64,000 bases of DNA from Bacteroidota bacterium (GTDB lineage Bacteria; Bacteroidota; Ignavibacteria; Ignavibacteriales; Ignavibacteriaceae): contig JAKIZM010000005.1 of the NCBI GenBank assembly GCA_022708025.1, positions 1 through 64,000 on the forward strand, in the 5' to 3' direction. The first letter of the stretch is position 1, and every line of letters begins with the position of its first letter. Position numbers and translations under genes: made by a program. Shown one piece after another: positions 1 through 18,599 of the stretch. The notes under the pieces were generated by a model that saw nothing but the letters and a program-made list of their open reading frames with translations, ran no database searches and was not told the DNA's origin.

Positions 1-139
1 CTTCAAAATGTTATATGAACAATCCCATTTAGCTCAATAAAGACAGTCATAAGGAAGAATTTTTAAGAAATAATTATTTGTCCGTTAAATTATCTTTGTT
101 TTTATGTCCTATATCGGATTTGAGATTCTGTTAAAACGG

Positions 140-171
140 TTTGACTTTGCATTTTTAACGGCTTATTTTTT
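140..171 (+). promoter_or_regulatory. Candidate promoter for the BMC shell genes
   Basis: TTTG at 140-143 is followed after 20 nt by TATTTTTT at 164-171. This resembles the Bacteroidota primary-sigma pattern (TTTG, 19-21 nt, TAnnTTTG) with the final G replaced by T. It would give a leader of roughly 25 nt before the TTG start at 202. Bases 1-139 hold no gene I can see. Confidence 0.4.
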
Positions 172-201: not shown

Positions 202-480
202 TTGATTGAAAAGTCACTCGGCATATTTGAAACTAATAGTGTGTCTTCATCAATAAATGCATTATCGGTTATCATAAAAGAAAATTCTGTAAATGTAATT
301 AACAAGCAGGTTATCGGAGACGGAATAGTAGCTCTGATATTTACAGGCAATTTAGGAGCACTGAAGAAAGCTTTTAAAAAAGGAGCGGAGCATTTAAGTG
401 CTTCCAATGAATTCAGAGTCTTTCATATTATTCCTATGCCTCATAAAAATCTGCTTTCTTTATTTGGAATCAGAGGTTAA
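202..480 (+). CDS. BMC-domain shell protein (single-domain, hexamer type)
   Basis: This 92-residue protein is the length of a single BMC domain, the tile that forms hexamers in the facets of bacterial microcompartments. It opens with MIEKSLGIFET, a diverged form of the LGxIET strand of the family. It then has the helix region, the GDG pore-type turn near residue 40 and the GxxGALKKAFKKGAEH helix. The start is TTG at 202 with a GGGAG ribosome site at 189-193; no ATG is usable upstream. The second BMC gene follows after 4 nt, so the two are co-transcribed. The sequence is more divergent than the downstream paralogue and could be an accessory tile. No microcompartment enzyme lies inside the window; any would be to the left of position 1 or elsewhere. 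The family is clear, the metabolic role is not. Confidence 0.85.
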   Translation: MIEKSLGIFETNSVSSSINALSVIIKENSVNVINKQVIGDGIVALIFTGNLGALKKAFKKGAEHLSASNEFRVFHIIPMPHKNLLSLFGIRG

Positions 481-484
481 AATT

Positions 485-1345
485 ATGTCTACTTCTTTCG
501 GTTTAATTGAATCAAAAGGTTTAGTTGCATTAGTTGAAGCAGCTGATATAATTCTTAAAAACTCACCAGTTGAAATATTGGGCGTTCGTAAGCTGAATAA
601 TGGTTTAACAGCACTGGCTGTTAGCGGCGATCAGGATTATGTTAATGCTGCTGTAGAATCAGCAGTAGATGCCGGGAAAAGAGTTGGTGAAGTAAATGCA
701 TTCACAGTAATTAATGAACCACCCAAACAAGTGATGAAAATATTTGGTGATTTGTTTTCAGCTTCAATGGAATCTGATGAATTAATTCTTGATATTAACG
801 AAGAATCAGGCATTAGAGTGAACAGAATTACAATGCCTGAGATTGAAGGACATAAGATCAAGGATAAAAAACCTAAAACCATCAAAAAAAGAGAAATATC
901 AAAAAAATCTGTAGAAGTATCTCATCCTGATGAAGAAAATAAAAAAGTAACTTCTGATAAAGTTGTTCAGATAAAACATAAAACAAAAGATGATTTATCT
1001 TTTTCAGTAAATACTTTGAAACAAAAAGAATCAGAAGAGTCTGAATCAGAAAGCGATATCAACTTATCTACAATTGAGCGTTTAAGAAGAGAAGCTTTAG
1101 GAATTAAGACAAAAGAAATAATCAAAGAAAGAAAGATTACTGTTGCTCCTGTAAAAAAGAAAAAAGAAAAGAGTGATGCAATCAGATCAGAAAATCAAAA
1201 AGTAGATTTTGAACTTATTGATAAAATGAATGTTCATAAATTAAGAAATTATGCGAGGAAATTTTCCGGATTTCCTATTAAAGGCAGGGAAATATCCAGA
1301 GCTAACCGAGGTGAACTTATAGAATATTTTAAAAAATTACATTAG
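485..1345 (+). CDS. BMC-domain shell protein with long charged C-terminal extension
   Basis: Residues about 4-85 form a typical BMC domain (FGLIESKGLVALVEAAD, then the NNG pore turn, GDQDYVNAAVESAVDAG). A linker of about 150 residues follows that is very rich in Lys, Glu and Ser and looks disordered. The C-terminal 40 residues (NVHKLRNYARKFSGFPIKGREISRANRGELIEYFKKL) look like a small helical SAP/Rho-N-like module. The ATG at 485 is preferred over an in-frame ATG at 398, because the earlier start would place 29 non-BMC residues in front and overlap the preceding gene. Extensions of this kind are known on some BMC shell proteins and are proposed to bind nucleic acid or cargo; here that is inference. 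The gene is 4 nt from the upstream BMC gene and 9 nt from the YbbR gene. Confidence 0.85.
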   Translation: MSTSFGLIESKGLVALVEAADIILKNSPVEILGVRKLNNGLTALAVSGDQDYVNAAVESAVDAGKRVGEVNAFTVINEPPKQVMKIFGDLFSASMESDELILDINEESGIRVNRITMPEIEGHKIKDKKPKTIKKREISKKSVEVSHPDEENKKVTSDKVVQIKHKTKDDLSFSVNTLKQKESEESESESDINLSTIERLRREALGIKTKEIIKERKITVAPVKKKKEKSDAIRSENQKVDFELIDKMNVHKLRNYARKFSGFPIKGREISRANRGELIEYFKKLH

Positions 1346-2306: not shown

Positions 2307-2930
2307 ATGTTTATTAGCTTTGAAGGAATAGATTTTAGTGGTAAATCAACACAGGTAAAACTATTAGAAAATTATTTAAAAGATCAGAATAAAAAAGTTA
2401 AACTAATCCGCGAACCAGGTGGTACAGAAATATCTGAGAAGATAAGAAAAATTTTACTTGACAAAGAAAATAATCATATGGTTATGGAAACAGAGATTTT
2501 TCTGTTTTCCGCAAGCCGAGCTCAATTAGTCAGAGAAGTTATCAGACCTAGTCTTGAAAAAGGATATTATGTTATTTCGGATAGATTTCATGATTCATCC
2601 ACAGCTTATCAGGGATATGGAAGAGGTTTACCTGTTGATTCAATAGTTAAAATTAATAATCTTGCAATCGGCAATACTGTGCCGGATATAACTTTTTTTA
2701 TAGATATTCCAAATGAAGTGGCAATTGCCAGAAAAGCTCAAAGATCGATGTCTGATCTTGACAGAATAGAAGTCTCTGATGAAAATTTTTTTGAAAGAGT
2801 TAGAAATGGTTATCTTAAAATTGCTGAATCTGAAAAAAGGTTCAGAGTAATAGATGGCACAAAAAGTATTGAAGAAATTAATGAAATGATAATAAATGAA
2901 ATAAATATTCTTGAAGGTGTTAATAAATGA
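2307..2930 (+). CDS. tmk: Thymidylate kinase
   Basis: dTMP kinase phosphorylates dTMP to dTDP in the cytoplasm for dTTP synthesis. The 207-aa length is normal. The Walker A loop GIDFSGKST is at residues 7-15, REPGGTEISEKIR is the next conserved block, and DRFH at residues 92-95 is the DR(Y/F)-type substrate motif. AYQGYGRG follows, as in the family. The C-terminal LID region carries the basic residues seen in other bacterial enzymes. The stop overlaps the start of the downstream S41 protease by 4 nt (ATGA), which indicates translational coupling. Confidence 0.95.
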   Translation: MFISFEGIDFSGKSTQVKLLENYLKDQNKKVKLIREPGGTEISEKIRKILLDKENNHMVMETEIFLFSASRAQLVREVIRPSLEKGYYVISDRFHDSSTAYQGYGRGLPVDSIVKINNLAIGNTVPDITFFIDIPNEVAIARKAQRSMSDLDRIEVSDENFFERVRNGYLKIAESEKRFRVIDGTKSIEEINEMIINEINILEGVNK

Positions 2931-4588
2931 AGATTCGTAAATATGTGTTGTTTTCACTGTTGATTGTAGTAACAATTAGTGCATTTGGTTTTATAATTTC
3001 AAATAAAGATATCTATTTTGAAATTACAAAAAACCTTGAACTATTTGGGAAAGTATATAAAGAAATATCTTTTAATTATGTGGATGAAGTTGATCCTAAA
3101 GAATTTATGAGAGCAGGTATAAAAGGAATGTTAAGTAAACTAGATCCTTATACTGTTTTTATTGATGAAAAAAATCAGGACGATATTGATCTGCTTACAA
3201 ACGGTAAATATGGCGGTGTGGGGATTTCTATCGGAGTAAGAAATGATAAAGTTACAATTCTCGAAATCCTTGATGGATATTCTGCTCAAAAACAGGGCTT
3301 AAGAGTTGGAGATGTAATTACTTCAGTTGGTGATAAATCAGTTTCTGTTGATAAGATTGACGAGATTTCCTCATTAGTTAAAGGTGAGCCGGGTACATCT
3401 GTTCAATTAAAGGTTTTAAGGTCAAATGAAAGTGATACCTTGATCTTTAACTTGATAAGAGAAGAAGTGATTATTAAAAATGTTGCGTTTGCTGATTTCT
3501 ATCCGGAGAATTCAGGAAATGTGTATATAAAACTTACTAACTTCAGCCGTTCTGCAGGTGATGAATTAAGAAATGCTTTGCGCGAATTAAAAAACAAAAA
3601 AGAAATCAATTCAATAGTGCTTGATTTACGTGGTAATCCGGGAGGATTGTTAGACGTTGCTGTTGATGTTTGTGATAAATTCCTTAATAAAGATGTATTG
3701 ATTGTTTCAACAAGAGGAAAAGACCTGAATAGTGAAAAAAAATACTTTGCAAAAGAAGAACCTTTAGCAGGTAATGAAAAACTTGTTGTATTAATTAATG
3801 GAAACAGTGCTTCAGCATCTGAAATTGTAGCTGGCGCAATTCAGGATCACGATAGAGGAGTGATTTTAGGAACTCAGTCTTTTGGCAAAGGATTAGTTCA
3901 AACTATTACTCCGCTTAGTTTTAACACATCTTTAAAAATTACAACGGCAAAGTATTATACACCAAGTGGCCGCTGCATTCAGAAAGTAGATTATTCAATG
4001 AACAACAAGGTAATTCCTGAACACGATTCACTTAAGAAAGATATTTTTTCAACAGATAATAAAAGAACAGTTTATAGTGCCGGTGGTATTACTCCGGATA
4101 CTGTAGTTGAATATTCAATTAAAAGTGATCTGCTGAAAGACCTTTTAGCTAAAGGTAAGATTTTTGACTTTGCAGATAAATACTATTATAAAAATGAGAA
4201 ATCAGATTTTAAGAAAATAGATGAAAAGAAATTGATAGCTGAGTTTAAACAATATCTGAAGGATTCGGATTATAAATATGAATCAGAAACAGAAAAGAAA
4301 TTCAATGAATTGACCAAAACAATTAATGAAAAGAATAAAACAAATAACATTGAAAGCTCATTGCAAAAAATTAAAGCTGATTTAAATAAAATTTATGAAA
4401 ATGAGTTTAATGATTTTACAAAAGAAATAATTTCTGAGCTTAAAATTGAAATTGCTTCAAGATATTTTGGTACAAACGGTGCCATTAAAGAGCGCTTAGT
4501 ATATGATAAACAGTTTAATGCAGCTCTTAATATTTTTTCCGATAAAAACACATATTCCAAATTGCTTAATAGCAGCAGTAAATTATAA
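2927..4588 (+). CDS. S41 carboxyl-terminal processing protease with PDZ domain
   Basis: This 553-aa CtpA/Prc-type serine protease has an N-terminal signal/anchor (residues about 6-24) and a PDZ domain (about 95-175, with GVGISIGVRNDKVTILEI). The S41 catalytic core follows. GNSASASEIVAGAIQDHDR places the catalytic Ser at residue 296, and FGKGLVQ places the general-base Lys at 321. This 25-residue spacing is the same as in the well-studied CtpA protease. A Lys/Glu-rich C-terminal region of about 150 residues follows. It would act in the periplasm, trimming or degrading C-termini of secreted proteins. The start overlaps tmk by 4 nt. Confidence 0.92.
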   Translation: MKIRKYVLFSLLIVVTISAFGFIISNKDIYFEITKNLELFGKVYKEISFNYVDEVDPKEFMRAGIKGMLSKLDPYTVFIDEKNQDDIDLLTNGKYGGVGISIGVRNDKVTILEILDGYSAQKQGLRVGDVITSVGDKSVSVDKIDEISSLVKGEPGTSVQLKVLRSNESDTLIFNLIREEVIIKNVAFADFYPENSGNVYIKLTNFSRSAGDELRNALRELKNKKEINSIVLDLRGNPGGLLDVAVDVCDKFLNKDVLIVSTRGKDLNSEKKYFAKEEPLAGNEKLVVLINGNSASASEIVAGAIQDHDRGVILGTQSFGKGLVQTITPLSFNTSLKITTAKYYTPSGRCIQKVDYSMNNKVIPEHDSLKKDIFSTDNKRTVYSAGGITPDTVVEYSIKSDLLKDLLAKGKIFDFADKYYYKNEKSDFKKIDEKKLIAEFKQYLKDSDYKYESETEKKFNELTKTINEKNKTNNIESSLQKIKADLNKIYENEFNDFTKEIISELKIEIASRYFGTNGAIKERLVYDKQFNAALNIFSDKNTYSKLLNSSSKL

Positions 4589-5146: not shown

Positions 5147-5719
5147 ATGAAAAAATCTTTTCTGGATTACATTTTTAGAAACAGATTACCTGTTGTGCTT
5201 TTTGTTGTTATTGCTTCATTTACATTAACATATTTTGTATCAAGAGCTGAAAGAGATGGTGTTGGTTATTCGCCAGATCAACCAATAGCTTATTCACATA
5301 AGCTCCACGCAGGGGATATGAAAATTGATTGTCAATACTGCCACGTTGGTGTTGAAAAATCCAGGCATGCAATGGTTCCCGCTGTTGCTACCTGTATGAA
5401 CTGCCATACTGTGGCAAGAAAAGATAAACCTGAAATTGTTAAGCTTACAGAATATTATATTAATGGAATACCTCTAAAGTGGAAACGAATTCATAAGGTT
5501 CCGGATTATGCCTACTTTAATCATTCAGTTCATGTTAATAAGGGGATAGATTGTACAGCTTGTCATGGTGAAATTACTACTATGGAAAAAGTCGGTCAGA
5601 TGAACTCTTTCACTATGGGAAGTTGTTTAAATTGTCACCGGAATGCACACGCTAAGTTCCCTGAATTAAGAGATAAAATTAAACCTGGTCCTGAATATTG
5701 CTCAGCTTGTCACAGGTAA
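5147..5719 (+). CDS. actA: ACIII subunit A, pentaheme cytochrome c
   Basis: This 190-aa subunit has one N-terminal membrane anchor (residues about 13-31) and five CxxCH heme c sites: CQYCH, CMNCH, CTACH, CLNCH and CSACH. Five hemes, additional scattered His ligands and a single anchor are the hallmark of ActA, the periplasmic multiheme subunit of alternative complex III. That complex oxidises menaquinol and passes electrons to a cytochrome c or directly to the oxidase. It heads the Act cluster that runs to about 13.7 kb. Confidence 0.93.
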   Translation: MKKSFLDYIFRNRLPVVLFVVIASFTLTYFVSRAERDGVGYSPDQPIAYSHKLHAGDMKIDCQYCHVGVEKSRHAMVPAVATCMNCHTVARKDKPEIVKLTEYYINGIPLKWKRIHKVPDYAYFNHSVHVNKGIDCTACHGEITTMEKVGQMNSFTMGSCLNCHRNAHAKFPELRDKIKPGPEYCSACHR

Positions 5720-5745
5720 TGGATAACTAAAAATCAGAAGTAAGT

Positions 5746-5922
5746 ATGAATAGAAAAAAATTTTTTACGTCATTAACGATTGGCACATTGGGATTTACTC
5801 TTTTTAATACATATCCATTTAAATTTTTTAAAGATAAATCTAAAACACTCAATTCAAATGTGAAATTGAAGATCAATCCTATGGCTGTTAGTAGAAAAAA
5901 TAAAGGTGGTAAGAATGTCTGA
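5746..5922 (+). CDS. Small Tat-signal-like ORF between actA and actB
   Basis: An open frame of 58 codons starts with ATG at 5746 and stops at 5920-5922, overlapping the actB start by 8 nt. It reads MNRKKFFTSLTIGTLGF, a basic K/R stretch followed by FxxxLTIG and a hydrophobic segment, much like a Tat signal. A basic tail follows (KLKINPMAVSRKNKGGK). An RK pair replaces the usual RR. The tight overlap with actB and position inside a conserved operon argue for a real gene; the small size argues for caution. It could be a short accessory subunit or assembly factor of ACIII. No function is claimed. Confidence 0.6.
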   Translation: MNRKKFFTSLTIGTLGFTLFNTYPFKFFKDKSKTLNSNVKLKINPMAVSRKNKGGKNV

Positions 5923-8900
5923 ACAGAATAATGGTTTAAACACAGCTAACGAAGATAATACTCCTCATCCAAATTACTGGAGAAGTTTCGAATCATTATA
6001 TAGAGATCCAAAAGTAATTGAAGCAAAGGCTCACGAATTTAAAGAAGGCGTTACGGATGACTTTTCTCCTTCGGGTATGTCAAATATTTCAAGAAGAAAA
6101 TTCTTTGCATTATTAGGTGCATCTGCTGCATTAGCCGGTACGGCTTGTACTGATTATCGTGATAAAGGTGAGATAGTTCCGTATAATGTTAAACCGGAAG
6201 AGATTACAGTCGGGAAACCAAACTATTATGCTTCTACTTGTACAGCCTGTCCAAATGCTTGTGGAATATTAATTAAAACCCGCGAAGGTCGCCCAATAAA
6301 GATTGATGGTAATCCGGATCATCCGGTTAATAAAGGAAAGATTTGTGCAAAAGGTCAGGCAAATATTTTAAATCTATATGATCCTGAGAGAATTAAGGCA
6401 CCACAGAAAAATTCAAGCTTAACTTTTAATGAAGTAAGCTGGAAGGATGCAGATAATGAGATAATAACAGCACTTGGATTAGCAGGCAGCGATGAGATAG
6501 CACTTATTACTCATTCAATTACTTCACCGACAATGCTAAAAGTGATAGATGACTTTAAAGCGAAATATCCAACAGCCAAACTCTATAGTTATGAATTATT
6601 TAATGACTCGATTAAAAATTCTGCCTGGAGAAAAACTTACGGCTCAGGAAATTTCCCTTTATTAAAATGGGATGAAGCTAAAGTAATTCTATCACTTGAA
6701 TCTGATTTCCTTGGAACTGAAGGGCACAAAGTTGAAACCTCAAGATTGTTTTCACAAAACAGAGATGTTGATAGTAAGAAGTTTACAAGACTTTATTGCA
6801 TTGACAGCAATATAACAATAACCGGAATTAATTCTGATTACAGATTACATATTAGACCTGAAGCACAATTAGAATTTGTATTAAGTTTAGCTAATGAGAT
6901 TGCTAAAAAGGGGAACATCACTTCAGCGATAAGTGCATCAGGTTATGATCTCAATAATTTTGCAAAAAAATATAATCTCGATTCAAAAATTTTGAATTAT
7001 CTTGTTTCGGATCTTATTGCTAATAAAGGTAAATCAATTATCACTGCAGGTAATTCACTGCCGGAAAATGTACATATAGCAGTTAATCTTTTAAATGATG
7101 CTTTAGGAAATAAAAATTTATACAGAACAGACTCTTCATCAGTATCGCTGGTTGATCATTCAACAATTGAAGAATTTGAAGCATTAGTTCAGAAGATGAA
7201 TGCCGGTTCCGTTGCTGTTGTGATAAATATTGATTGCAATCCTGTGTATCATTTTGCAGATGATCTTGGTTTTGAAAAAGCACTTGCTAAAGTTCCATTA
7301 AGTATAACTCTTACAGAAAGGTTAAATGAAACTACAGCAGTTACACACTATGCACTTCCGCTCAATCATAATTTTGAAAGCTGGGGAGATGCAAAAGTAA
7401 GAACCAATGTTTTCTCATTACAGCAGCCGGTTATTGCACCTATTCATCAAACAAGACAAAAAGAATCAATACTTTTATCCTGGATATCAGGGAAATCGGA
7501 TAGTTTTACGGAATATTTATATCTTACTTATCTGAAGAATAACTGGGAAAAGAATATTTATCCAACTCTTAATTCTAAAATTAGTTTTGATAAATTTTGG
7601 CTCGGCGCTTTACACGATGGTATTGTAAAAACTACTTCTCCTGTAATTTCGTATGGAGCAGCAAACACAGGTTCTTTTGACGAATCCAAGATAGAAATAA
7701 AAAATCCCGAAGGTTTTACATTAATCATAAAAGAAAACTATTCGCTTGGTGACGGCAGATTTGCTCACAATGGCTGGCTTCAGGAATTACCGCATCCTGT
7801 TTCAAAGGCAACCTGGGATAATTATGCTGCACTTTCCGAAAAGACTTGTAAAGATTTTGGATTAAAGGATAATGATCTTATTGAGGTAAGTGTTGAAAAC
7901 AGAAAACTTAAATTACCTGTTCTTATGCAAGCAGGAACTGCTGATAATGTAATTGTTGTTGAGAGCGGATTTGGCAGAACTAATTCAGGTACAGTTGCTA
8001 CAGGTGTTGGGTTTAATGTTAATTCACTTCTTTCATCTAAATCAAATTTATCTCCTTGGATTTATAGTAATGCTAAAATTACCAAAACAGGCGATACTTA
8101 TTTAGTTGCTACAACTCAGGAGCATCATGTTTTTGATGATCCATTGGTTCAGGATTTACATATAATCAGGAAAATAATTCAGGAAGGTACTGTAGCTGAA
8201 TATTTAAAGAATCCATCATTCATAAAAGAAAACAATGAGGCACAATTGCCAAGTGTTTCTAATCCCTATCCTTATAATGGCGTTAAATGGGGAATGGCAA
8301 TTGATCTAAATAAATGTACAGGCTGCGGAGATTGTGTTGTAGCTTGTGATGTTGAAAATAATATTCCTGTTGTTGGTAAAGATCAGGTATTAAAAAGCAG
8401 AGAAATGCAATGGTTAAGGATTGACAGATATTATTCAGGCAGCCCGGATAATCCAAAAGTCAGTATACAACCAATGTTATGTCAGCATTGTGATCAGGCG
8501 CCGTGTGAAAATGTATGCCCGGTAGTTGCAACTACTCACAGTCCTGATGGATTGAATCAAATGACATACAACAGATGTGTTGGTACAAGATATTGTTCAA
8601 ATAACTGTCCTTATAAAGTAAGAAGATTTAACTTCTATAATTTCAGAGATCACTTCAGAGATAGTTATCAGGAGAATCCTATTTTAGCATTGATGCATAA
8701 TCCTGAAGTTACAGTCAGATCACGCGGAGTAATGGAAAAATGTACATTCTGTGTTCAAAGAATTTCGGAAGCAAGAGCTGATGCTACCCATCTGAAAAGA
8801 AACCTTAAAGGTTCGGATGTAACAACAGCCTGTCAGGATGCCTGCAGTTCGAATGCAATTTATTTTGGTGATATTAACGATAAAGAAGAAGAATTTTATA

Positions 8901-9007
8901 AATATAGAAATCACGAGCTTGGATATTATGTTCTTGAAGAGCTTAACGTCAAGCCGAATGTAACTTACATTGCAAAACTTAGAAATATTCATTCGGAGGA
9001 AGTTTAG
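5915..9007 (+). CDS. actB: ACIII subunit B, molybdopterin-like plus ferredoxin domains
   Basis: This protein of about 1030 aa is the iron-sulfur subunit of ACIII. An N-terminal Tat-type signal ([20 protein letters not shown], near residue 60) also contains a lipobox-like AGTAC. It is followed by a molybdopterin-oxidoreductase-like domain with CTACPNAC...GKICAKG, and then a C-terminal ferredoxin-like domain. The ferredoxin domain has four Cys groups ([41 protein letters not shown]...CQDAC), enough for several FeS clusters. In characterised ACIII the molybdopterin-like part holds no Mo cofactor. The ATG at 5915 is chosen over an in-frame GTG at 5906 because AAAGGTGG at 5902-5909 then serves as its ribosome site. 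The stop overlaps the actC GTG start. Confidence 0.93.
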
Positions 9008-10383
9008 TGAATATAGATTACTCTCAGGAAACGCCTCTTATAGCCGGAAGGTTGGACTTAGCTCAGATAGAAGAGCTGATTGCCCAGCCAATGGATACAA
9101 AACCCGATCGTAAATATTATATTGCGCTTTCGATATCTGTAACCGCGCTGCTTATCGGGGCAGTTTCTCTTGGTCTTACTTTCTATTATGGAATCGGGCT
9201 TTGGGGAAATAATCAGCCGGTTGGTTGGGCGTTTGAAATTGTTAACTTCGTTTTTTGGGTCGGTATCGGTCATGCCGGAACACTTATTTCTGCAATATTG
9301 TTTTTGTTAAGACAGAAGTGGCGTACCGGTATAGCCAGATTTGCTGAAGCGATGACGATTTTTGCTGTTATGTGTGCAGGCATTTTTCCTGCAATACATA
9401 CAGGCAGACCCTGGATGGATGGCTACTTACTGCCTTATCCGAATCAACATGGTTTATGGGTTAATTTTACATCTCCTTTGTTATGGGATGTTTTTGCTGT
9501 TACAACATATTTTACTGTATCTCTGGTTTTCTGGTATGTTGGTCTTATTCCTGATTTTGGCAGTATGAGAGATAGAACAACATCCAAGATTAAAAAAACT
9601 ATTTACTCAATATTCTCACTTGGATGGAGACACTCAAACAGACACTGGTCGCATTACGAAAAAGCTTATATGCTTTTAGCTGGATTTGCTACACCGCTGG
9701 TTTTATCAGTACATACCATTGTTAGCTTTGACTTTGCAGTTTCAATAATTCCCGGATGGCATACAACAATATTCCCTCCATACTTTGTGGCAGGTGCTAT
9801 CTTTTCAGGATTTGCAATGGTTGTTACGGTACTAATTTTTGTAAGAAAGATTTTTGATCTGCAGAATATTATTACTATTGATCATTTAGAGAAAATGAAT
9901 AAGGTAATTTTATCTACAGGTATGATGGTTGGCTATGCTTATTCAATGGAATTTTTTATTGCCTGGTACAGCGGAGTTCAGGCAGAATCATTCCTTTTCC
10001 TCAGCAGAGCATTTGGGCCGTATGCCTGGGCATATTGGATAATGGTAAGCTGTAATGTTCTAATTCCGCAGCTTTTCTGGTTCAGAAAAATCAGAAGGTC
10101 AATTCCACTTATGCTGATAATAGTAATATTCGTAAATGTTGGTATGTGGTTCGAAAGATTTGTAATTACCGTTACTTCATTAAATCGGGATTTTCTGCCA
10201 TCAAGCTGGGCTTATTTTACACCTACAATGTATGATATCGGATTACTGATCGGTAGTTTTGGTTTCTTCTTTACTCTTGTAATTTTATTTACAAAATCTT
10301 TACCGGTTGTATCAATCTCAGAAGTTAAAGCCGTAGCAGATGGCGCGCAGCCTACTCATCATGGAGGTGCTTATCATGAATAA
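9007..10383 (+). CDS. actC: ACIII subunit C, NrfD/PsrC-type quinol-binding membrane protein
   Basis: This 458-aa polytopic protein has about ten membrane helices and belongs to the NrfD/PsrC family. ActC and ActF are the two homologous membrane subunits of ACIII; ActC carries the menaquinol site. Characteristic stretches include [21 protein letters not shown] and the helix with [10 protein letters not shown]. The C-terminus is His-rich (THHGGAYHE). The start is GTG at 9007, overlapping the actB stop (TAGTG). The next gene begins 8 nt before its stop, so all Act genes are tightly coupled. Confidence 0.93.
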
Positions 10384-11542
10384 TGATAAAAATTTGTATT
10401 GTATTGCCGCAACATTTAATACTCCTGATGAAATTATCAATGCCGCAAAAAAAGTTTCAGGTGCAGGTTATACTCATTTTGATGTAAACACTCCTTATCC
10501 TGTTCACGGAATGGATGATGCAATGAAGTTGAAACCATCTAAACTTGGTTTTGTTACCCTTGTTATGGGTTTAGCTGGCGCATCCATTGCATTGCTTTTT
10601 ATGTACTGGAGTTTGTCTATTGATTATCCGTTAGTGATTGGCGGTAAACCATATTTTGCATTACCGGCTTTTATTCCGGTTACATTTGAAATGACAGTTT
10701 TGTTAGCTACAGTATCAACAGTAGTGGCAATGATTATGCTTTTCTTTCAGTTACCAAATAACAAGCATCCCTTGCATGATACTAAGTATATGAAGAGTGT
10801 ATCACACGATAAATATGGAATTCTTATTGAAACAAATGATGATAAGTTTGATGAAAAGGAAGTTGAAAATTTTCTTAAAAATCTGAAGCCACTAAATATT
10901 GAATATATATATTATCCGCCTGAAGAAACTTATTCGATATTTCAGCCGAAGTTTTTATTATTATTAGCTGGTATTGCTTTGGTTGTTTCAGGTGGTACAT
11001 ATTTTTCATTAAACAAACTGATGTTTATGACACCATTTAACTGGATGATGGATCAGGCTAAACTTATACCGCAGAAAGGCAGCGAGTTATTTGAAGATGG
11101 TTTTGGAATGAGAAAGCCTGTTACCGGAACAGTAGCAAGAGGATTTGTTCCTTATCCTTACAAAGGACAGGTTAATCCAACCGAAGTTTTAGCAAATCCT
11201 TTCCTGCCTACAAAAGAAAATATTGCTTTAGGAAAGGCAAAATATGATATCTATTGTTCACCTTGTCACGGTTACTTTGCTGATGGAGATAGCAGGTTAA
11301 GAGGACAGTTTCCAAATCCTCCAACATTGCATTCTCAGAGAGCGAGAGACTTTAGTGATGGTATGTTTTATCATATAATAACAAACGGTCAGAATATAAT
11401 GCCATCTTATGAATCTCAGATAACAAGGGATGAAAGATGGGCTATAGTTAATTATATAAGAGTATTACAACGTGCAAAAAATGCGAGTGATGCTGATTTA
11501 ACAGAAATGAATAAGGAGGCTGGTAGCAATGTCGCAAACTGA
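10376..11542 (+). CDS. actDE: ACIII ActD-ActE fusion: DUF3341 domain plus cytochrome c
   Basis: This 388-aa protein joins two subunits that are usually separate. Residues about 1-190 are ActD (DUF3341): a soluble start ([20 protein letters not shown]), two membrane helices, and a short domain. A third helix (about 195-215) then leads to a C-terminal monoheme cytochrome c with CSPCH near residue 300 and NIMPSY as the likely Met ligand, matching ActE. The ATG at 10376 is chosen because GGAGG at 10363-10367 is well placed, and the in-frame ATG at 10340 would lie deep inside actC. It overlaps actC by 8 nt and actF by 14 nt. Confidence 0.88.
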
Positions 11543-12719
11543 TTTTCATTACCAGAAAAAAGAATTACCGGCGAATCTCACAAAATTCAGTCTTGTTGTT
11601 CTGGCTATTGGAGTGGTCCTTTCTTTAATTGCATTTTTTGTTGATAGAGAAAGAGCACTGTTTAGTTATTTAGTTACCTATATGATGATAGTAAGCATTG
11701 CCGTGGGATCATTATTTATTGTTGCACTTGAATATATTGCCGGTGCTGATTGGAGTACACCAATAAGAAGAATTCCGGAATTCTTTTCCAGACTTTTACC
11801 TTTATTGTTCATACTCGTAATTCCGCTTCTTGTGTTTAACCACGATCTGTTTCATTGGGCACACAAAGAAGCAGTTGCAGAAGATAAAATACTGCAGGGC
11901 AAAGCACCTTATCTTAATATTACTTTCTTTGTAATAAGGACGTTTGTATTTATCGGTCTTTGGTCATTATTCTATTGGGTGTTGATAAGAAATTCGCGTA
12001 AACAGGATACTACAAAGGATCAGAATCTTACAACAAAAAATATCAGATTATCAGCAATCTTTATTCTTGTGTTTGCAATAAGTATTACCTTTACCGCAAT
12101 TGATTTTATGATGAGCCTTGAGCCGCATTGGTTCTCAACAATTTACGGAGTTTATTTCTTCTCAGGAATAGTAGTAGCTGCATTAGCCGCGATAACACTT
12201 GCTGTTATAATGTTAAAAGAAAGAGGTTATTTTAGTCCGTGGATGACTGATGATCATTTATTCAGTCTTGGTGCTCTGATTTTTGCTTTTATAAATTTCT
12301 GGGCTTACATAGCTTTTTCACAGTATTTACTTATCTGGTATGCAGATCTTCCTGAAGAGACTTTTTGGTTCTTAACCCGATGGAATGGTAATTGGGCTTA
12401 TCTGTCAATTCTTTTAATTATTGTTCAGTTTTTAGTCCCGTATTTTGCTTTATTAACCCAGCCTTCAAAGAAAGACCCAAAGAGATTGAAGTTTATCTCA
12501 ATATGGCTTTTATTTGCTCATTTTATTGATTTGTTCTGGTTAATAATGCCGAATATGAATTCAATGAAAGATGGATATGTTTTTAGCTGGATTGATTTTG
12601 TATTTCCGATAGCCGGTGTTGGACTTATTATTTTAGTTTTTATTATTAGTTATAAAAAAGATAATTTATTACCAATTGGTGATCCAAAACTAAAAAGAGG
12701 AATGGATTTTCATCTCTAA
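11529..12719 (+). CDS. actF: ACIII subunit F, quinol:cytochrome c oxidoreductase membrane subunit
   Basis: This 396-aa polytopic protein has about ten hydrophobic helices and is the second NrfD-like membrane subunit of ACIII. The early WSTPIRRIPEFFSRLLPLLF block and the HDLFHWAHKEAV loop near residue 115 are typical of ActF. It is reported to be paralogous to ActC and to form part of a proton path without its own quinol site; that is family knowledge. The start lies within the end of the ActDE gene, with AAGGAGG at 11514-11520 as ribosome site. Confidence 0.92.
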   Translation: MSQTDFHYQKKELPANLTKFSLVVLAIGVVLSLIAFFVDRERALFSYLVTYMMIVSIAVGSLFIVALEYIAGADWSTPIRRIPEFFSRLLPLLFILVIPLLVFNHDLFHWAHKEAVAEDKILQGKAPYLNITFFVIRTFVFIGLWSLFYWVLIRNSRKQDTTKDQNLTTKNIRLSAIFILVFAISITFTAIDFMMSLEPHWFSTIYGVYFFSGIVVAALAAITLAVIMLKERGYFSPWMTDDHLFSLGALIFAFINFWAYIAFSQYLLIWYADLPEETFWFLTRWNGNWAYLSILLIIVQFLVPYFALLTQPSKKDPKRLKFISIWLLFAHFIDLFWLIMPNMNSMKDGYVFSWIDFVFPIAGVGLIILVFIISYKKDNLLPIGDPKLKRGMDFHL

Positions 12720-12744
12720 TATTAATTGAGATTCAAGGTTTTAT

Positions 12745-13677
12745 ATGAAAGAAGTTGTAAAAGAAATGACAAAAAGAACCGAGCAGGCATTTGTTAATCC
12801 AGGTGCCCGTTTTGGTTTACTTTATATTTATGTTCTGATAATAGGACTAATAATAGGTTTGTATTATATAAGTAATCTTGAAAATATTTCAAGACAATCA
12901 GTGCCTGCGGTGTTGCCGGATACAACAGCTGCGGTAACCGATCTGACTGTAAAAAAGGCAGTTAGTGTTCCGCCTGTTGTTTTAAGTGAAATATCTAAAC
13001 CAACACCAAATCTTATAGCCGAAGGTGAAAAAGTATATAAAACAAACTGTGCATCTTGTCACGGTGATAATGGAGCAGGAGATGGACCGGCATCTGCAGG
13101 ATTGAATCCGCCGCCAAGAGATTTTCTTGTAAAAGAAAACTGGAAAAACGGTACAAAACTTTCTGAGATCTATAAAACTTTGCAGGAAGGTTTGCCACCC
13201 AGCGCTATGATTGCTTACGATTTTCTTTTACCTGAACAAAAATTTGCAGTTGCTCATTACATCAGACAAACTTTTATACCTGGCGCTGAAACCGATACAG
13301 AAGATGATTTAAAAGCTCTTGATTTAACTTATAATTTATCTGCTGGAGTTCAATTAGCTGCACAAATACCTGTTAGCAGTGCAAGTATTCTTATTGAGAA
13401 TGAAAATCAAAAAAAGATTGAGAATATTAATAAGCTGACAGAAAAAATAAACTCCCTAAGCAGTGAAGCCGGATATAGTATTTTTAATGAAGTAGTTAAG
13501 AATGAGAATACAGCCTTAACTTTTCTGACAATTAATAATGAATGGAAAAAGAGCGAAGACTCGTTTATAAATCTATTGGTAAACAATGTTAATCAGAACG
13601 GTTTTAACGGAGCGATATATAATCTGAGTTCTAATGAATGGAATGTATTGTATAATTTTTTGAATAAATTGATTTGA
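12745..13677 (+). CDS. Membrane-anchored monoheme cytochrome c of the Act/oxidase cluster
   Basis: This 310-aa protein has an N-terminal membrane anchor (residues about 23-43), a Pro/Val-rich linker, and a cytochrome c domain with CASCH near residue 97 and DGPASAGLNPPPRDF after it. The C-terminal 110 residues are a non-heme region rich in Asn, Glu and Lys, with no recognisable domain. Its place between actF and the oxidase genes suggests it carries electrons from ACIII to the CuA site, or is itself an ACIII cytochrome subunit. Sequence alone does not decide between the two. Confidence 0.85.
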   Translation: MKEVVKEMTKRTEQAFVNPGARFGLLYIYVLIIGLIIGLYYISNLENISRQSVPAVLPDTTAAVTDLTVKKAVSVPPVVLSEISKPTPNLIAEGEKVYKTNCASCHGDNGAGDGPASAGLNPPPRDFLVKENWKNGTKLSEIYKTLQEGLPPSAMIAYDFLLPEQKFAVAHYIRQTFIPGAETDTEDDLKALDLTYNLSAGVQLAAQIPVSSASILIENENQKKIENINKLTEKINSLSSEAGYSIFNEVVKNENTALTFLTINNEWKKSEDSFINLLVNNVNQNGFNGAIYNLSSNEWNVLYNFLNKLI

Positions 13678-13688
13678 TCTTTTATAAA

Positions 13689-14480
13689 ATGAAACTGTTT
13701 CTTACAATATTCTTAATGATACTCTTATCATTATCAGGTCATTCAAACAATAAGAGTATAGAAGTTGGTATAGATGAGCAATTAGGTAAGTACCTTCCCC
13801 TTGATAAAACATTTATTGATGAAGATGGAAAACCGGTTATTCTAAAAGACCTTTTTACAAAACCGACAATCCTTTCATTTGTTTATTATAATTGTCCTGG
13901 TATTTGCAGTCCCTTGTTAATGGAACTTTCAGATATTATTGGTAAATCTGATCTTGTTGCCGGAGTGGACTATAATGTTGTATCAATAAGTATGGATCAG
14001 TTGGAAACTTCAAAAGATGCTGCTGAAAGAAAAGCAACATTTTATAAAGCTATAAATAAAAATATTCCGCCTGAAAGCTGGAAATTCCTGACCGGAGATA
14101 GTGCAACAATTAAAGAGGTTACTGATGCGGCTGGATTTTATTTTAAAAGACAGGGGAAAGAATTTCTGCATACAGGTGCATTCATATTTGTAGATAATAA
14201 AGGGAAAATTTGCCGTTATTTATTTCCGAGTTTTTCTGAAAGAAGCGGTTTTGGAATATTGCCTTTTGATTTTAAAATGGCAGTAACTGAAACAGCAGAA
14301 GGTAATGTTACTCCGACAATTGCCAAAGTTTTGCAGTTCTGTTTCAGTTATAGTCCTGAAGGACAAACTTATGTTCTTAATTTTACAAGAATATTTGGTA
14401 TAGGGATTTTATTCTTAATCGGAGTATTTGTAGTATTTTTAAAATTTAAACCAAAAAAAGATGATACTAAAACGAGGTAG
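13689..14480 (+). CDS. SCO1/SenC-type copper chaperone
   Basis: This protein of about 263 aa has an N-terminal signal peptide (MKLFLTIFLMILLSLSG), a thioredoxin-fold SCO domain and a C-terminal membrane helix (about 238-257). The copper ligands are visible: CPGIC gives Cys 69 and Cys 73, and FLHTGAF gives His 161. SCO proteins deliver copper to, or reduce, the CuA centre of oxidase subunit II. The gene lies directly before subunit I, which fits. The ATG at 13689 is preferred; a TTG at 13674, overlapping the previous stop, is also possible. Neither has a strong ribosome site. Confidence 0.9.
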   Translation: MKLFLTIFLMILLSLSGHSNNKSIEVGIDEQLGKYLPLDKTFIDEDGKPVILKDLFTKPTILSFVYYNCPGICSPLLMELSDIIGKSDLVAGVDYNVVSISMDQLETSKDAAERKATFYKAINKNIPPESWKFLTGDSATIKEVTDAAGFYFKRQGKEFLHTGAFIFVDNKGKICRYLFPSFSERSGFGILPFDFKMAVTETAEGNVTPTIAKVLQFCFSYSPEGQTYVLNFTRIFGIGILFLIGVFVVFLKFKPKKDDTKTR

Positions 14481-14488
14481 TTATTTAG

Positions 14489-16150
14489 ATGAATGAAACA
14501 ATAACAGTTCCGACAAACGGTAAACATCCAAGCTATCTGGAATATAAGGGAAAGTATAAAGGTTTTCTTGGCTGGGTACTTTCCACCGACCATAAAAGAA
14601 TTGGAATATTATATTTGGTTTCTATACTTTCTTTTTTCCTTGTCGGTGCAACATTCGGGTTCCTATTAAGATTGGAATTGATTGCGCCGGGCAGAACGAT
14701 AATGGATCCGCAGACTTACAATTCTTTTTTTACTCTTCATGGAGTAATAATGGTATTCTTGTTTGTAATACCTGCGATTCCAGCAATCTTCGGTAATTTC
14801 TTTCTTCCAATACTTATTGGTGCAAGAGATGTATCTTTTCCCAGACTAAATTTGTTGTCCTGGTATCTATATATCATCGGCGGATTGCTTGCAATAATTT
14901 CTATAATTGCTCCCGGCGGTGCTGCGGATACCGGCTGGACATTTTATATTCCTTACAGTGTCAGAACTGGAACGAATGTAATATATGCATTGTTTGCAGC
15001 TTTTGTTTTGGGTTTCTCTTCCATATTAACTGGTATTAATTTCGTTACTACAGTTCATCGTTTAAGAGCGCCGGGTATGACCTGGTTTAAAACACCCTTA
15101 TCTGTCTGGTCAATATATTCAACTGCGTGGGTACAGGTATTGGTAACACCAATTATTGGAATTACATTACTTTTGGTTGTAATAGAAAGAACATTTAGTG
15201 TTGGATTATTTGATCCTGCATTGGGCGGTGATCCTGTTTTATTTCAACATCTGTTCTGGATTTACTCACATCCTGCTGTTTATATAATGATCTTACCGGC
15301 TATGGGTATTGTATCTGAAATAATTCCTGTATTTGCAAGAAGAACAATTTTTGGGTACAAGTTTATTGCATTATCAAGTGTGGCTATTGCATTCTTTGGT
15401 TCATTAGTCTGGGCACATCATATGTTTACTGCCGGAATGAGTAATACCGGACAATTTATTTTTTCTCTTTTAACGATGATAGTTTCTATCCCTAGTGCAA
15501 TAAAAGTTTTTAACTGGACTGCAACACTCTATAAAGGTTCAATTGAATTAGCTCCGCCATTACTATACGTTCTTGCGTTTATATTTCAGTTTGCAATTGG
15601 CGGATTAACAGGAGTGATGCTGGGTATTTTGTCGATTGATATAATGGTTCATGATACTTCATTTGTAGTTGCCCATTTTCATTATGTTATGTTTGGCGGA
15701 ACAGGCTTTGGAATCTTTGCAGCATTGCATTATTGGCTGCCGAAAATGTTTGGTAGAATGTATAATATTAAAGTTGCCAAAAGTACTTTCTGGCTTGTGT
15801 TTGTAGGATTTAATCTTCTTTATTTCCCGATGTTTATTATGGGATGGTTAGGAATGCCAAGAAGATATTATGATTATTTACCAGAATTCCATATCTATCA
15901 TTTGCTATCAACCATTGGCTCCTGGATACTGATATTAGGAATACTAATTATGTTTACCAATTTTATTGTTGCCTTGATACGCGGTAAAAAAATTACTGAA
16001 AAGAATATCTGGGGCGGTGAAACTTTAGAGTGGACAATTGATACTCCGCCTATTCATGAGAACTTTTTGGAAATTCCAACAGTGCATGAAGCACCTTACG
16101 AATACAAACAAAACGAAACTGATATTAGACAATTTCAGGAGGTTAAGTGA
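14489..16150 (+). CDS. ctaD: Cytochrome c oxidase subunit I, A2-type
   Basis: This 553-aa catalytic subunit of an aa3-type oxidase has about 12 helices. The CuB/heme ligands are present: HP..VY at 261-265, HH in WAHHMF, and the paired His in VVAHFHYVMFGG. The D-channel Asp and Asn are kept (ARDVSFPRLN) and the K-channel Lys is in IPSAIKVFNW. The helix VI glutamate of A1 oxidases is absent. The motif reads YSHPAVY (259-265), the signature of the A2 subfamily, in which Tyr-Ser replaces that Glu. It reduces O2 to water and pumps protons. It precedes subunit III with a 4-nt overlap. Confidence 0.96.
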   Translation: MNETITVPTNGKHPSYLEYKGKYKGFLGWVLSTDHKRIGILYLVSILSFFLVGATFGFLLRLELIAPGRTIMDPQTYNSFFTLHGVIMVFLFVIPAIPAIFGNFFLPILIGARDVSFPRLNLLSWYLYIIGGLLAIISIIAPGGAADTGWTFYIPYSVRTGTNVIYALFAAFVLGFSSILTGINFVTTVHRLRAPGMTWFKTPLSVWSIYSTAWVQVLVTPIIGITLLLVVIERTFSVGLFDPALGGDPVLFQHLFWIYSHPAVYIMILPAMGIVSEIIPVFARRTIFGYKFIALSSVAIAFFGSLVWAHHMFTAGMSNTGQFIFSLLTMIVSIPSAIKVFNWTATLYKGSIELAPPLLYVLAFIFQFAIGGLTGVMLGILSIDIMVHDTSFVVAHFHYVMFGGTGFGIFAALHYWLPKMFGRMYNIKVAKSTFWLVFVGFNLLYFPMFIMGWLGMPRRYYDYLPEFHIYHLLSTIGSWILILGILIMFTNFIVALIRGKKITEKNIWGGETLEWTIDTPPIHENFLEIPTVHEAPYEYKQNETDIRQFQEVK

Positions 16151-16767
16151 GTACTCAAGAACATACGGTAACTCACATCCATCGTGATGATATTGGTGCA
16201 CGAATGGGAATGTGGCTGTTCCTTTTTACAGAACTATTGCTGTTCGGAGGTATGTTTATTCTTTATTCCATTTACAGATATACATATCCGGATGCATTTC
16301 ATCTTGCAGCAAAAGATCTTAACACTATAATAGGAACTTTTAATACAGCAATTTTGCTTACAAGTTCACTTACTATGGCATTGTCAATTGCTGCAATTCA
16401 GAGAGATCGTAAATCTCTTTCGATCTTTTTGCAGTTTATTACTATCCTGCTTGCACTTGGATTTATGGTAAACAAATATTTTGAATGGTCAGCAAAGTTT
16501 AGTCATGGTATCTATCCCGGTTCAGAGGTATTATTAGCAAAACCTTCCGGTGAGATTGTATTTTATGGATTGTATTATGTTATGACTGGTCTGCACGGAC
16601 TTCACGTTATTATTGGAATGGTTTTGATTGCAATTATGATGAGATTTACTTATAAAGGAATAATTAAAGCTGATAGCTATGTTAAATTAGAAACGGTCGG
16701 ATTATACTGGCACCTTGTTGATATAATCTGGATTTTCTTATTCCCGTTATTTTATCTGATAACATAA
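16147..16767 (+). CDS. ctaE: Cytochrome c oxidase subunit III
   Basis: This 206-aa protein with five to six membrane helices matches the short bacterial subunit III. The GLHGLHVIIGM helix, the WHLVDIIWIFLFPLFYL C-terminal helix and the NTAILLTSSLTMA helix are all family hallmarks. The subunit stabilises the catalytic core and proton uptake. The GTG start at 16147 overlaps the ctaD stop (GTGA). Confidence 0.95.
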   Translation: MSTQEHTVTHIHRDDIGARMGMWLFLFTELLLFGGMFILYSIYRYTYPDAFHLAAKDLNTIIGTFNTAILLTSSLTMALSIAAIQRDRKSLSIFLQFITILLALGFMVNKYFEWSAKFSHGIYPGSEVLLAKPSGEIVFYGLYYVMTGLHGLHVIIGMVLIAIMMRFTYKGIIKADSYVKLETVGLYWHLVDIIWIFLFPLFYLIT

Positions 16768-16785
16768 GATCAAATAGGAAATTTT

Positions 16786-17091
16786 ATGGAAAAAAATCAA
16801 GAAAAACATTTAGATAATTCGCACAGTTATGGTAATTATATTCTGGTATGGCTTGCTTTGATGGCTTTAACCGCAGTTACGGTAGCTGTTGCAGGTATTA
16901 ACCTTGGTGGATTAACAGTAGCAACTGCATTGATTATCGCATCTGTAAAAGGTTATCTGGTATTGACAATCTTTATGCATTTAAAAAGTGAAAGCAAAAC
17001 ATTCAGAGTGTTTGTTAGTGTAGCTCTGATTTTTCTTATAGTGTCTTTTATTTTATTATTTTCTGATTATTCTTTTATCGCAAGGAATTAA
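16786..17091 (+). CDS. ctaF: Cytochrome c oxidase subunit IV (prokaryotic type)
   Basis: This 101-aa protein has three membrane helices and the short layout of the prokaryotic COX subunit IV family. Conserved parts are YILVWLALMALTAVTVAVAG, then ASVKGYLVLTIFMHLKSE, where the VKGxLVxxxFMHLK pattern is diagnostic. It is a small structural subunit. It sits between subunits III and II. Confidence 0.92.
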   Translation: MEKNQEKHLDNSHSYGNYILVWLALMALTAVTVAVAGINLGGLTVATALIIASVKGYLVLTIFMHLKSESKTFRVFVSVALIFLIVSFILLFSDYSFIARN

Positions 17092-17093
17092 AT

Positions 17094-17717
17094 ATGTTTA
17101 ATGGTGCATCCAATTTTTCTCACGATGTAGATTCTCTTTTTCTCTTTACATTAATTGTTTCGGTATTCTTTCTTGTACTTATAACAGGATTGATGATTTA
17201 TTTTGTAATAAAATACAATCGGAAAAGAAATCCAAAAGCAACTAATTTTCACGGTAGTACTAAACTTGAGATAACCTGGACACTCATTCCTACAATACTT
17301 GTATTGATAATGTTCTGGTGGGGCTGGAAAGGTTATTCAAAAATGTCTGACATTCCGGAAAATGCTATGACCATTGATGTAACAGCACAAATGTGGAGCT
17401 GGAGTTTTAAATATGCAAATGGAAAAGTTTCTGATTCATTGTATGTGCCTGTAGATAAACCGATTGTTCTGAATTTACAATCTATGGATGTTGTTCATGC
17501 ATTTTATATTCCTGCATTCAGAATTAAAAAAGATGTCTTTCCTAAACAAAACAGAGTTGTTTGGTTTGAGGCTGATGAAATTGGTGACTACGATATTGCC
17601 TGCGCTGAATACTGCGGGTTAAATCATTCGTATATGTATAACAAAATAAAAGTTGTTTCCGAAGATGACTTTAGTAATTGGCTCTATGGAAGTTTTGATA
17701 CTGAAACAACAAAATAA
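17094..17717 (+). CDS. ctaC: Cytochrome c oxidase subunit II (CuA)
   Basis: This 207-aa subunit has two N-terminal membrane helices and a periplasmic cupredoxin domain. The CuA ligands are complete: His in VVHAFYIPAFRIKKD, and CAEYCGLNHSYM supplies two Cys, Glu, His and Met. WSWSFKY is the aromatic patch for electron entry. There is no fused cytochrome c domain, so a separate cytochrome or ACIII must donate electrons; membrane cytochromes of this cluster are candidates. Subunit II being last in the oxidase gene set is unusual, since it is most often first. Confidence 0.95.
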   Translation: MFNGASNFSHDVDSLFLFTLIVSVFFLVLITGLMIYFVIKYNRKRNPKATNFHGSTKLEITWTLIPTILVLIMFWWGWKGYSKMSDIPENAMTIDVTAQMWSWSFKYANGKVSDSLYVPVDKPIVLNLQSMDVVHAFYIPAFRIKKDVFPKQNRVVWFEADEIGDYDIACAEYCGLNHSYMYNKIKVVSEDDFSNWLYGSFDTETTK

Positions 17718-17735
17718 ACCGTTATAAACTATTAA

Positions 17736-18599
17736 TTGCTTAATCAGATTAAAATAATTACCGAGCTTACTAAGCTTAGTATTACTATCTTCGTTACTGT
17801 TACAACTGCTTTCGGTTATATCGCTTATGCAGGTGTAATTAATTCGGCGATTATCCTTCCTACATTAGGTATTTTATTTTTAGCTTGTGGATCCGCTGCA
17901 ATAAATCATTATCAGGAACGAAATACAGATCGCTTGATGGATAGAACCAAATCAAGACCTATTCCTTCAGGTAAGATAAAAGCATCAACAGTGCTTTTTA
18001 TAGCTATCTTTCTTGCTGTCAGCGGATCAATTATGTTGTTTTTTGGCGGCGGTTTGCTTGCGTTGTTACTTGGGATTCTTAACTTGATTTGGTACAACGC
18101 TATTTATACACCATTAAAGAAAATTACTCCTTTTGCTATTATTCCCGGATCAATTGTTGGAGCATTACCACCAATGGTTGGATGGGTATCAGCAGGTGGA
18201 GATGTTTTTCATCCACAGATTTTATTAATTGCGATTTTTTTCTTTATCTGGCAAATACCGCATTTCTGGCTGCTTCTTTTACTTCTTGATAAAGATTATC
18301 AGAAAGCCGGTTTTCCTACTTTAACTCAGATTTTTAATCAGCAGCAATTAGGAAGGATAACTTTTGTCTGGATAATTGCCACAGCCATAACCGGTTTGCT
18401 TTTACCATTGTTTCAGATTTCTCATAATGGTTATATAAATTTAAGTTTATTACTCGCAGCAGTCTGGCTTAGTTATAAATCAATCAGTCTTACCAGAAGC
18501 ACTGTTGAAAGAACATCTTATAAATTTGCTTTTAAGAACATCAATTACTTTGCTCTATTTATTGTGTTAATGGTATCAATAGATAGACTTTTAGCTTAA
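17736..18599 (+). CDS. ctaB: Protoheme IX farnesyltransferase (heme O synthase)
   Basis: This 287-aa UbiA-family prenyltransferase converts heme B to heme O, the precursor of the oxidase heme A. The prenyl-diphosphate motif is NTDRLMDRTKSRP near residue 65, and the second motif lies in the LLLLDKDYQKAGFPTL loop. About nine membrane helices are predicted by eye. The start is TTG at 17736. Its place right after the oxidase subunits fits its role. No ctaA (heme A synthase) gene is seen in this window. Confidence 0.94.
   Translation: MLNQIKIITELTKLSITIFVTVTTAFGYIAYAGVINSAIILPTLGILFLACGSAAINHYQERNTDRLMDRTKSRPIPSGKIKASTVLFIAIFLAVSGSIMLFFGGGLLALLLGILNLIWYNAIYTPLKKITPFAIIPGSIVGALPPMVGWVSAGGDVFHPQILLIAIFFFIWQIPHFWLLLLLLDKDYQKAGFPTLTQIFNQQQLGRITFVWIIATAITGLLLPLFQISHNGYINLSLLLAAVWLSYKSISLTRSTVERTSYKFAFKNINYFALFIVLMVSIDRLLA

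Follow-up and report, generated by a model that had tools for sequence, protein, structure and literature searches.

The two BMC-domain genes that open the window, i.e., the whole 64,000-nucleotide stretch analysed here, are in our judgement rather probably an old FRAG-type shell pair that was kept after the rest of its compartment (a bacterial microcompartment, or BMC, is an organelle walled by protein) had been lost, and whose products may now act as a shell-independent hexamer with nucleic-acid-binding tails. Comparison with related genomes establishes three points at the level of sequence and gene order: the pair, designated P1 and P2, derives from the BMC-H pair that FRAG genomes carry at the ruvX-ybbR locus; in the clade to which the window belongs no FRAG pentamer was found, yet the pair is retained; and the C-terminal tail of P2 is far more strongly conserved than the BMC domain of the same protein.

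A BMC gene pair in a housekeeping locus

The source genome is an Ignavibacteriota MAG with a completeness of 94%, and the window begins with the first base of a contig of 81,465 bases, so that the present assembly contains no sequence further to the left. P1 (positions 202–480, forward strand; 92 aa, TTG start) and P2 (485–1345, forward strand; 286 aa) both belong to PF00936, with scores of 45.1 and 61.8 bits, respectively, where the curated cut-off is 24.5 bits. The start of P2 is best taken at the ATG at 485 and not at the mechanically called GTG at 398, which gives the length of 286 aa and a gap of 4 nt between the genes. On the same strand follow a YbbR-like gene (1355–2269; PF07949, 25.5 bits) and two housekeeping neighbours, tmk, encoding thymidylate kinase (2307–2930; PF02223), and an S41 peptidase gene (2927–4588; PF03572), so that the arrangement given in the original prediction, with a BMC pair 4 nt apart and the genes ybbR, tmk and that of an S41 protease downstream of it, is confirmed by Pfam. 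Its description as a BMC shell gene pair holds insofar as both genes encode the BMC domain, but P2 is not a plain shell protein: its BMC domain (residues 1–90; 485–754, forward strand) is followed on the same strand by a charged, fast-evolving linker (residues 91–238, about 148 variable residues; 755–1198) and a conserved tail of 46 residues (1205–1345), the latter recognised from an alignment, a predicted structure and structure matches. A chance resemblance to BMC proteins was rejected, both matches lying far over the cut-off and a search with the P2 protein giving matches in 56 of the 59 relatives' genomes.

Upstream of P1, the last six codons and the stop codon of ruvX (DSVKTV; 124–144, forward strand) were recognised by comparison with relatives. 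Homology to their ruvX stops at about position 123, and bases 1–122, which are unlike it, represent an insertion, a rearrangement or an assembly end inside the gene. The promoter-like region that had been proposed ahead of P1 does not stand out, with 5 sigma-70-like sites in positions 1–1500 against 7.1 ± 2.6 in shuffled sequences, and a promoter better than chance was rejected since this count is no higher than that in shuffled sequence. It had also been suggested that the pair is the end of an operon starting further to the left; this does not agree with the relatives, which carry ruvX, an RSH (relA/spoT-type) gene, a TPR-like gene, upp and der upstream (ruvX identified by Pfam, the others named by eye), and an upstream operon of compartment enzymes was rejected because of the same ruvX, rsh, upp and der.

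The order der-upp-rsh-ruvX-BMC gene(s)-ybbR-tmk-S41, with extra genes in places, was found at four loci of the family and in G250, which belongs to the next family. Over 56 loci, some of them cut by contig ends, ybbR is a neighbour in 53, tmk in 49, ruvX in 48 and the S41 gene in 47. At 90 of 100 loci the gene immediately after P2 is that for YbbR, whereas four loci have no room for it and six lack the adjacency, as judged with a YbbR profile drawn mainly from one order, which may miss distant YbbR. Further along the window, positions 5147–18599 contain a respiratory cluster (multihaem cytochrome c, a large molybdopterin/iron-sulphur protein and oxidase subunits, named by eye), the first genes of which come after the S41 protease in three relatives (G002, G003 and G024) too.

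The FRAG shell in relatives and the EUT operon of the window genome

Ignavibacteriae are named as hosts of the FRAG BMC type, the shell genes of which are scattered and include a BMC-P triplet, by Sutter et al. 2021 (PMC8217296), who also record C-terminal extensions of BMC-H proteins of up to 200 residues. A typical relative carries the P1/P2 pair, two more BMC matches (a tandem BMC-T where examined) and mostly three BMC-P, the counts being taken from genome tables; the FRAG set therefore consists of two BMC-H, one BMC-T and mostly three BMC-P, scattered over the genome. BMC-P (PF03319) was found in 49 of the 59 genomes, in four of which (G000, G002, G004 and G005) it is solely that of an ethanolamine (EUT) operon; subtracting these four left 45 genomes designated FRAG+, a set that includes G008 and G046, with compact BMC operons and no tail. 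The clusters of these two genomes (L070 and L090) and that of G056 (L093) combine BMC-H and BMC-P with an EutE-like aldehyde dehydrogenase and are apparently a second, different BMC type.

The tail protein occurs with no BMC-P in seven of the 59 genomes (G001, G003, G016, G023, G024, G027 and G033), and among 14 tail-bearing, BMC-P-less genomes, class members included, a search at E ≤ 10 gave no BMC-P match over the cut-off and five sub-threshold ones. G001, G003, G016 and G024 have two BMC matches each, namely the pair alone with no other shell gene detected, and G027 and G033 a single one, that of P2. G016 and G024 form with the window's genus one clade of eight genomes (support 1.00), in none of which FRAG BMC-P or the acetylating aldehyde dehydrogenase that co-occurs with it was found, and all of which keep the pair; no tandem BMC-T was found in the four EUT-less members. 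Outside this clade FRAG BMC-P has been lost further in G023, G027/G033 and G250/G301, the last two genomes having one BMC match each and no BMC-P. These loss counts come from one FastTree tree of 56 genomes, based on seven neighbouring proteins with gaps, in which G027 and G033 are poorly placed and family f12 is not represented, and some of the genomes concerned are incomplete (G001 84%, G005 85%, G027 87%, G141, G153 67%). Neither pair nor shell was found in G010 (76% complete) and G015 (81%), which may be due to incompleteness, or in G038 (99%) and G289 (98%), which have no shell at all and indicate that the pair is dispensable. In a class-wide sample of 294 genomes the tail and BMC-P over cut-off were each found in 119, with 110 genomes having both, nine the tail alone and nine BMC-P alone, a split obtained by comparing tables by eye.

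The metabolic part of the compartment seems to have gone along with the shell. A 529-residue protein of G012 matches the NCBIfam model of acetylating acetaldehyde dehydrogenase (639 bits, cut-off 620.1 bits), and a counterpart at E ≤ 1e-200 was found in 40 of the 45 FRAG+ genomes and in none of the 14 other relatives; matches between 1e-20 and 1e-200, comprising EutE-like proteins, two longer AdhE-like proteins (G042 and G044) and a contig-end fragment in G028, were not counted. Two BMC-P genes lie beside the phosphopentomutase gene deoB in G012 and G022. Candidate FRAG enzyme genes are located at L217 3895–5484 and L065 9597–10721. The association of the acetylating aldehyde dehydrogenase with FRAG and of phosphopentomutase with BMC-P in these two genomes provides a testable FRAG substrate, from which we infer that FRAG compartments may serve deoxyribose breakdown by deoB and acetaldehyde dehydrogenase.

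The window genome itself contains ten PF00936 matches, the pair and eight on contig C48 (seven of the eight over the cut-off), so that the genome-wide search for further BMC genes led to a single EUT operon. By Pfam it encodes EutB, BMC-domain proteins, a ParA-type ATPase and EutP, by NCBIfam an EutK-like protein under its cut-off, and by eye an EutC-like protein, an EutE-like aldehyde dehydrogenase, an RnfC-like protein and a tandem BMC-T; two canonical EutM-like proteins are its own. The ParA-type ATPase gene (L013 12828–13586, C48), which may position EUT compartments, lies between the EutK-like gene and a BMC-domain gene (EutS-like by eye). The only BMC-P over cut-off in the window genome sits inside this operon, placing the genome outside FRAG. 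With an EUT operon on another contig the pair is formally a satellite locus as defined by Axen et al. 2014 (PMC4207490), and to that extent the satellite shell locus proposed originally was borne out; the orthologous pairs of G001 and G003, in the window's own genus, and of the neighbouring genera G016 and G024, where no other shell gene was detected, alter this picture, and the loci of G003 and G024 fall outside the definition.

Parts of the EUT operon are related to FRAG. Its BMC-T, the only tandem BMC-T of its kind in the window genome, shares 57% identity with the FRAG BMC-T of G012 and 56% with its counterpart in G054, the two FRAG proteins being 78% identical. Tandem BMC-T adjoins an RnfC-like gene in G012 and G054, as it does in the EUT operon (L014 230–2132, C48), and the RnfC-like neighbours of EUT and FRAG BMC-T are 43–44% identical. 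The EUT BMC-P is 41–45% identical to the four FRAG BMC-P compared and close to none of them. The likeness of the BMC-T suggests that some of the FRAG components may have been transferred to the EUT operon rather than lost; the BMC-T of that operon may be a reused FRAG module or an imported one.

Divergence of P1 and conservation of the P2 tail

The original prediction called the first gene strongly diverged, and the alignment columns of its orthologues bear this out. In P1 the central glycine of the GGG pore is replaced by Asp (GDG) and the Arg of the PRPH facet edge by Met (PMPH). Among 52 orthologues (43 FRAG+ and nine without FRAG BMC-P, PduA numbering being by analogy), all 43 FRAG+ proteins retain the facet-edge Arg, Asp-22, Lys-26 and the GGG pore, whereas the nine others have all lost both the facet-edge Arg and the central pore Gly; Asp-22 is missing in seven of these nine and Lys is retained in eight. 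An acidic pore residue (D or E) is present in P1 of all six genus members, EUT-less G001 and G003 included. By eye, the edge-motif sites read KENS and PMPH in P1 and KNSP and NEPP in P2. The orthologue search did not find P1 in G027 and G033. According to PMC4139245, the PduA mutants R79A and K26A give layered sheets instead of tubes and K26D no structures; R79A thus still forms sheets, and losing the Arg alone need not end all tiling.

The contrast within P2 is pronounced. Its BMC domain has a mean identity to the FRAG+ consensus of 0.86 (minimum 0.70) in 41 FRAG+ genomes and of only 0.25–0.66 in ten orthologues without FRAG BMC-P, with erosion in G016, G024 and G033; the tail has a mean of 0.90 (minimum 0.75) in the former and 0.79–0.92 in the latter. 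No weight is given here to Fisher tests on these values, as they disregard common descent. This comparison used 41 FRAG+ and ten other rows and did not include G005, where P2 is split across two contig ends and is present in the alignment only in shortened form; the P2 alignment also omits G034 and G048, and G027 was left out of one further alignment (A3). Strong matches to the tail occur in 54 of the 59 genomes, one in each, and among the 80 of 111 matches listed, from MAGs and isolates, the labels were Ignavibacteriales, Ignavibacteriaceae, Melioribacteraceae, Bacteroidetes and alike.

Family f12 has a related protein that precedes a YbbR-type gene in G076 and G129, where ruvX and tmk neighbours were not seen. 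It aligns colinearly with P2 in profile comparison, largely through the tail, its N-terminal part staying under the Pfam BMC cut-off (best E 0.035 in G118 and 5.3e-4 in G153). A fold prediction for the G076 protein has PduA as its best Foldseek match (E 2.9e-5), which is not independent evidence of a BMC fold since the underlying alignment held true BMC proteins. A stand-alone tail ORF of 91 residues occurs in G141 (L192 34–309), an incomplete genome, with no BMC remnant found upstream. The linkers of the P2 orthologues in G250 (L194 5087–6322) and G301 (L195) have, by eye, grown acidic repeats.

The tail follows the motif NVHxLRxxARxxxxFPIKGREISRANRxEL, with FPIKGREIS[KR]ANR as a core of its own. 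That of the window matched no Pfam family up to E 10, and among 26 tails scanned against Pfam there was no SAP match and Rho_N was listed for two, with a best E of 0.0071 and none over threshold. The predicted structure (pLDDT 88.7) has four short helices, at residues 2–6, 10–19, 28–32 and 35–45. Foldseek returned no match at E ≤ 1e-3 (best E 2.9), and VIA matched seven of 21 chains at Z ≥ 2, all with Z below 6, values at which the likeness may go no further than a common arrangement. The top chain was TFIID (Z 5.4), of doubtful relevance, followed by two Rho chains over residues 2–42 (Z 5.3 and 5.2), FAN1 465–504 (4.4), 3'hExo 72–110 (3.4), CDNF (3.3) and CARP2 (2.4). The matched regions of Rho, FAN1 and 3'hExo are presumably Rho_N or SAP domains. 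Both kinds of domain have a helix-extended loop-helix layout of about 40 residues, and by its model the tail may resemble them in this fold. The tail probably grips DNA or RNA; against this stand the low structure scores, the weak Rho_N matches and a net charge that averages only +2.8 and is 0 in two of the 26. Against the NCBIfam EutK model (NF012010) P2 reaches 37.9 bits, far under the cut-off of 218 bits.

Explanations for the retained pair

Selection on the pair was estimated by the Nei-Gojobori method, with dS close to or above 1 for several genome pairs and five point estimates failing for saturated dS. Among the EUT-bearing G000, G002 and G004, dN/dS is 0.10–0.11 for P1, 0.03–0.04 for the BMC domain of P2 and 0.44–0.66 for the linker; between the EUT-less G001 and G003 it is 0.38 (0.21–0.68) for P1 and 0.17 (0.07–0.31) for the P2 BMC domain; and between the EUT-bearing G005 and these two it is 0.25–0.26 and 0.08–0.10. 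The tmk control gave 0.08–0.11 in EUT-bearing and EUT-less groups alike. The bootstrap intervals of dN/dS lie below 1 in the 15 genome pairs for each of P1 and the P2 BMC domain; on these estimates P1 and P2 are under purifying selection, and the pair is not decaying freely. A functionless relic, kept by its position in a housekeeping operon, might have been read from the lost edge motifs, the eroded BMC domains and the genomes where P2 is the sole BMC match, but was already disfavoured by these intervals, and the retention of the pair throughout the clade with a conserved tail makes it highly improbable.

A more serious alternative, although we think it unlikely, is that these satellite shell genes now serve the EUT compartment by altering its permeability or tethering it to the nucleoid. 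Its best argument is the tighter selection in G000, G002 and G004 than between G001 and G003, to which can be added the presence of the operon in the window genome, the acidic P1 pore residue in six genus members, which looks like a chosen change, and the FRAG-like BMC-T, which suggests that FRAG parts may be reused. However, the P1 values of G005 against the EUT-less genomes indicate that tight selection does not simply track EUT, the acidic residue is shared by EUT-less G001 and G003, and four genomes carry the pair with neither EUT nor another shell gene detected. P1 has moreover lost its facet-edge Arg, and the operon supplies its own EutM-like pair, EutK-like protein and ParA-like ATPase. 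Being orthologous to the FRAG pair of the relatives by locus and sequence, P1 and P2 were probably not made for the EUT compartment. Less probable again is that the tail binds a protein partner, e.g., the product of the neighbouring ybbR, instead of nucleic acid; the direct succession of P2 and YbbR, which extends to f12 (G076 and G129), would suit this, but six of the 100 loci lack the adjacency and the folds closest to the tail model are of a nucleic-acid-binding kind.

If the pair is indeed a shell remnant turned to other use, P1 and P2 would still assemble into hexameric rings, each of one protein or of both, with little or no capacity for tiling into facets, and P2 would present six flexible linkers ending in SAP/Rho_N-like domains, making it a multivalent binder of nucleic acid. 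In FRAG-bearing relatives the tails would anchor the compartment to the nucleoid or to RNA, and after the loss of the shell selection would have kept this tethering or a function of the ring on nucleic acid. The hexamers may be mixed P1/P2 ones, and the tail may instead serve in encapsulation or in the lumen. More tentatively, and with somewhat less than an even chance of being right, the shell protein may have become shell-independent repeatedly within the Ignavibacteriota, the SAP/Rho_N-like tail being the retained function and the BMC hexamer only a multivalent scaffold, eroded in one family and absent in G141.

The locus resembles known systems in part. It has in common with FRAG (PMC8217296) the Ignavibacteriae host, scattered shell genes and C-terminal BMC-H extensions, but the window genome has no BMC-P triplet, and of the FRAG set the BMC-H pair is what is left, in remodelled form, with a 57%-related BMC-T lying in the EUT operon. 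Satellite loci (PMC4207490) likewise have shell genes alone, away from enzymes, with a second BMC locus in the genome, but differ since P1/P2 orthologues are retained even in genomes without any other BMC locus found, so that shell supply cannot be their sole function. EutK, which consists of a BMC domain and a C-terminal helix-turn-helix (PMC5821096), is like P2 in joining a BMC-H domain to a C-terminal domain of the kind that binds nucleic acid, and in having no known role; the tail of P2 differs in being SAP/Rho_N-like and on a long linker, and the genome has its own EutK-like protein in the EUT operon. From Rho_N and SAP domains, the layout of which it may share, the tail differs by its own motif and by staying below Pfam thresholds in the members scanned. 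Open-licence literature on Ignavibacteria or Melioribacter microcompartments, SAP domains, orphan BMC-H and DNA-binding shell tails contained, by title or abstract start, no description of the P1/P2 pair.

The finding is real, and the pair is of more interest than a stray satellite would be, although hexamer formation and nucleic-acid binding are what we infer. If the preferred explanation of a retained, shell-independent pair is true, BMC-H matches alone do not prove a compartment, a tail that can be studied without a compartment offers a natural experiment on the unsolved role of the nucleic-acid-binding-type tails of shell proteins, those of EutK and P2, and BMC hexamers would not be merely the bricks of an organelle: the organelle could disappear from a lineage while its brick stayed on in a different role.
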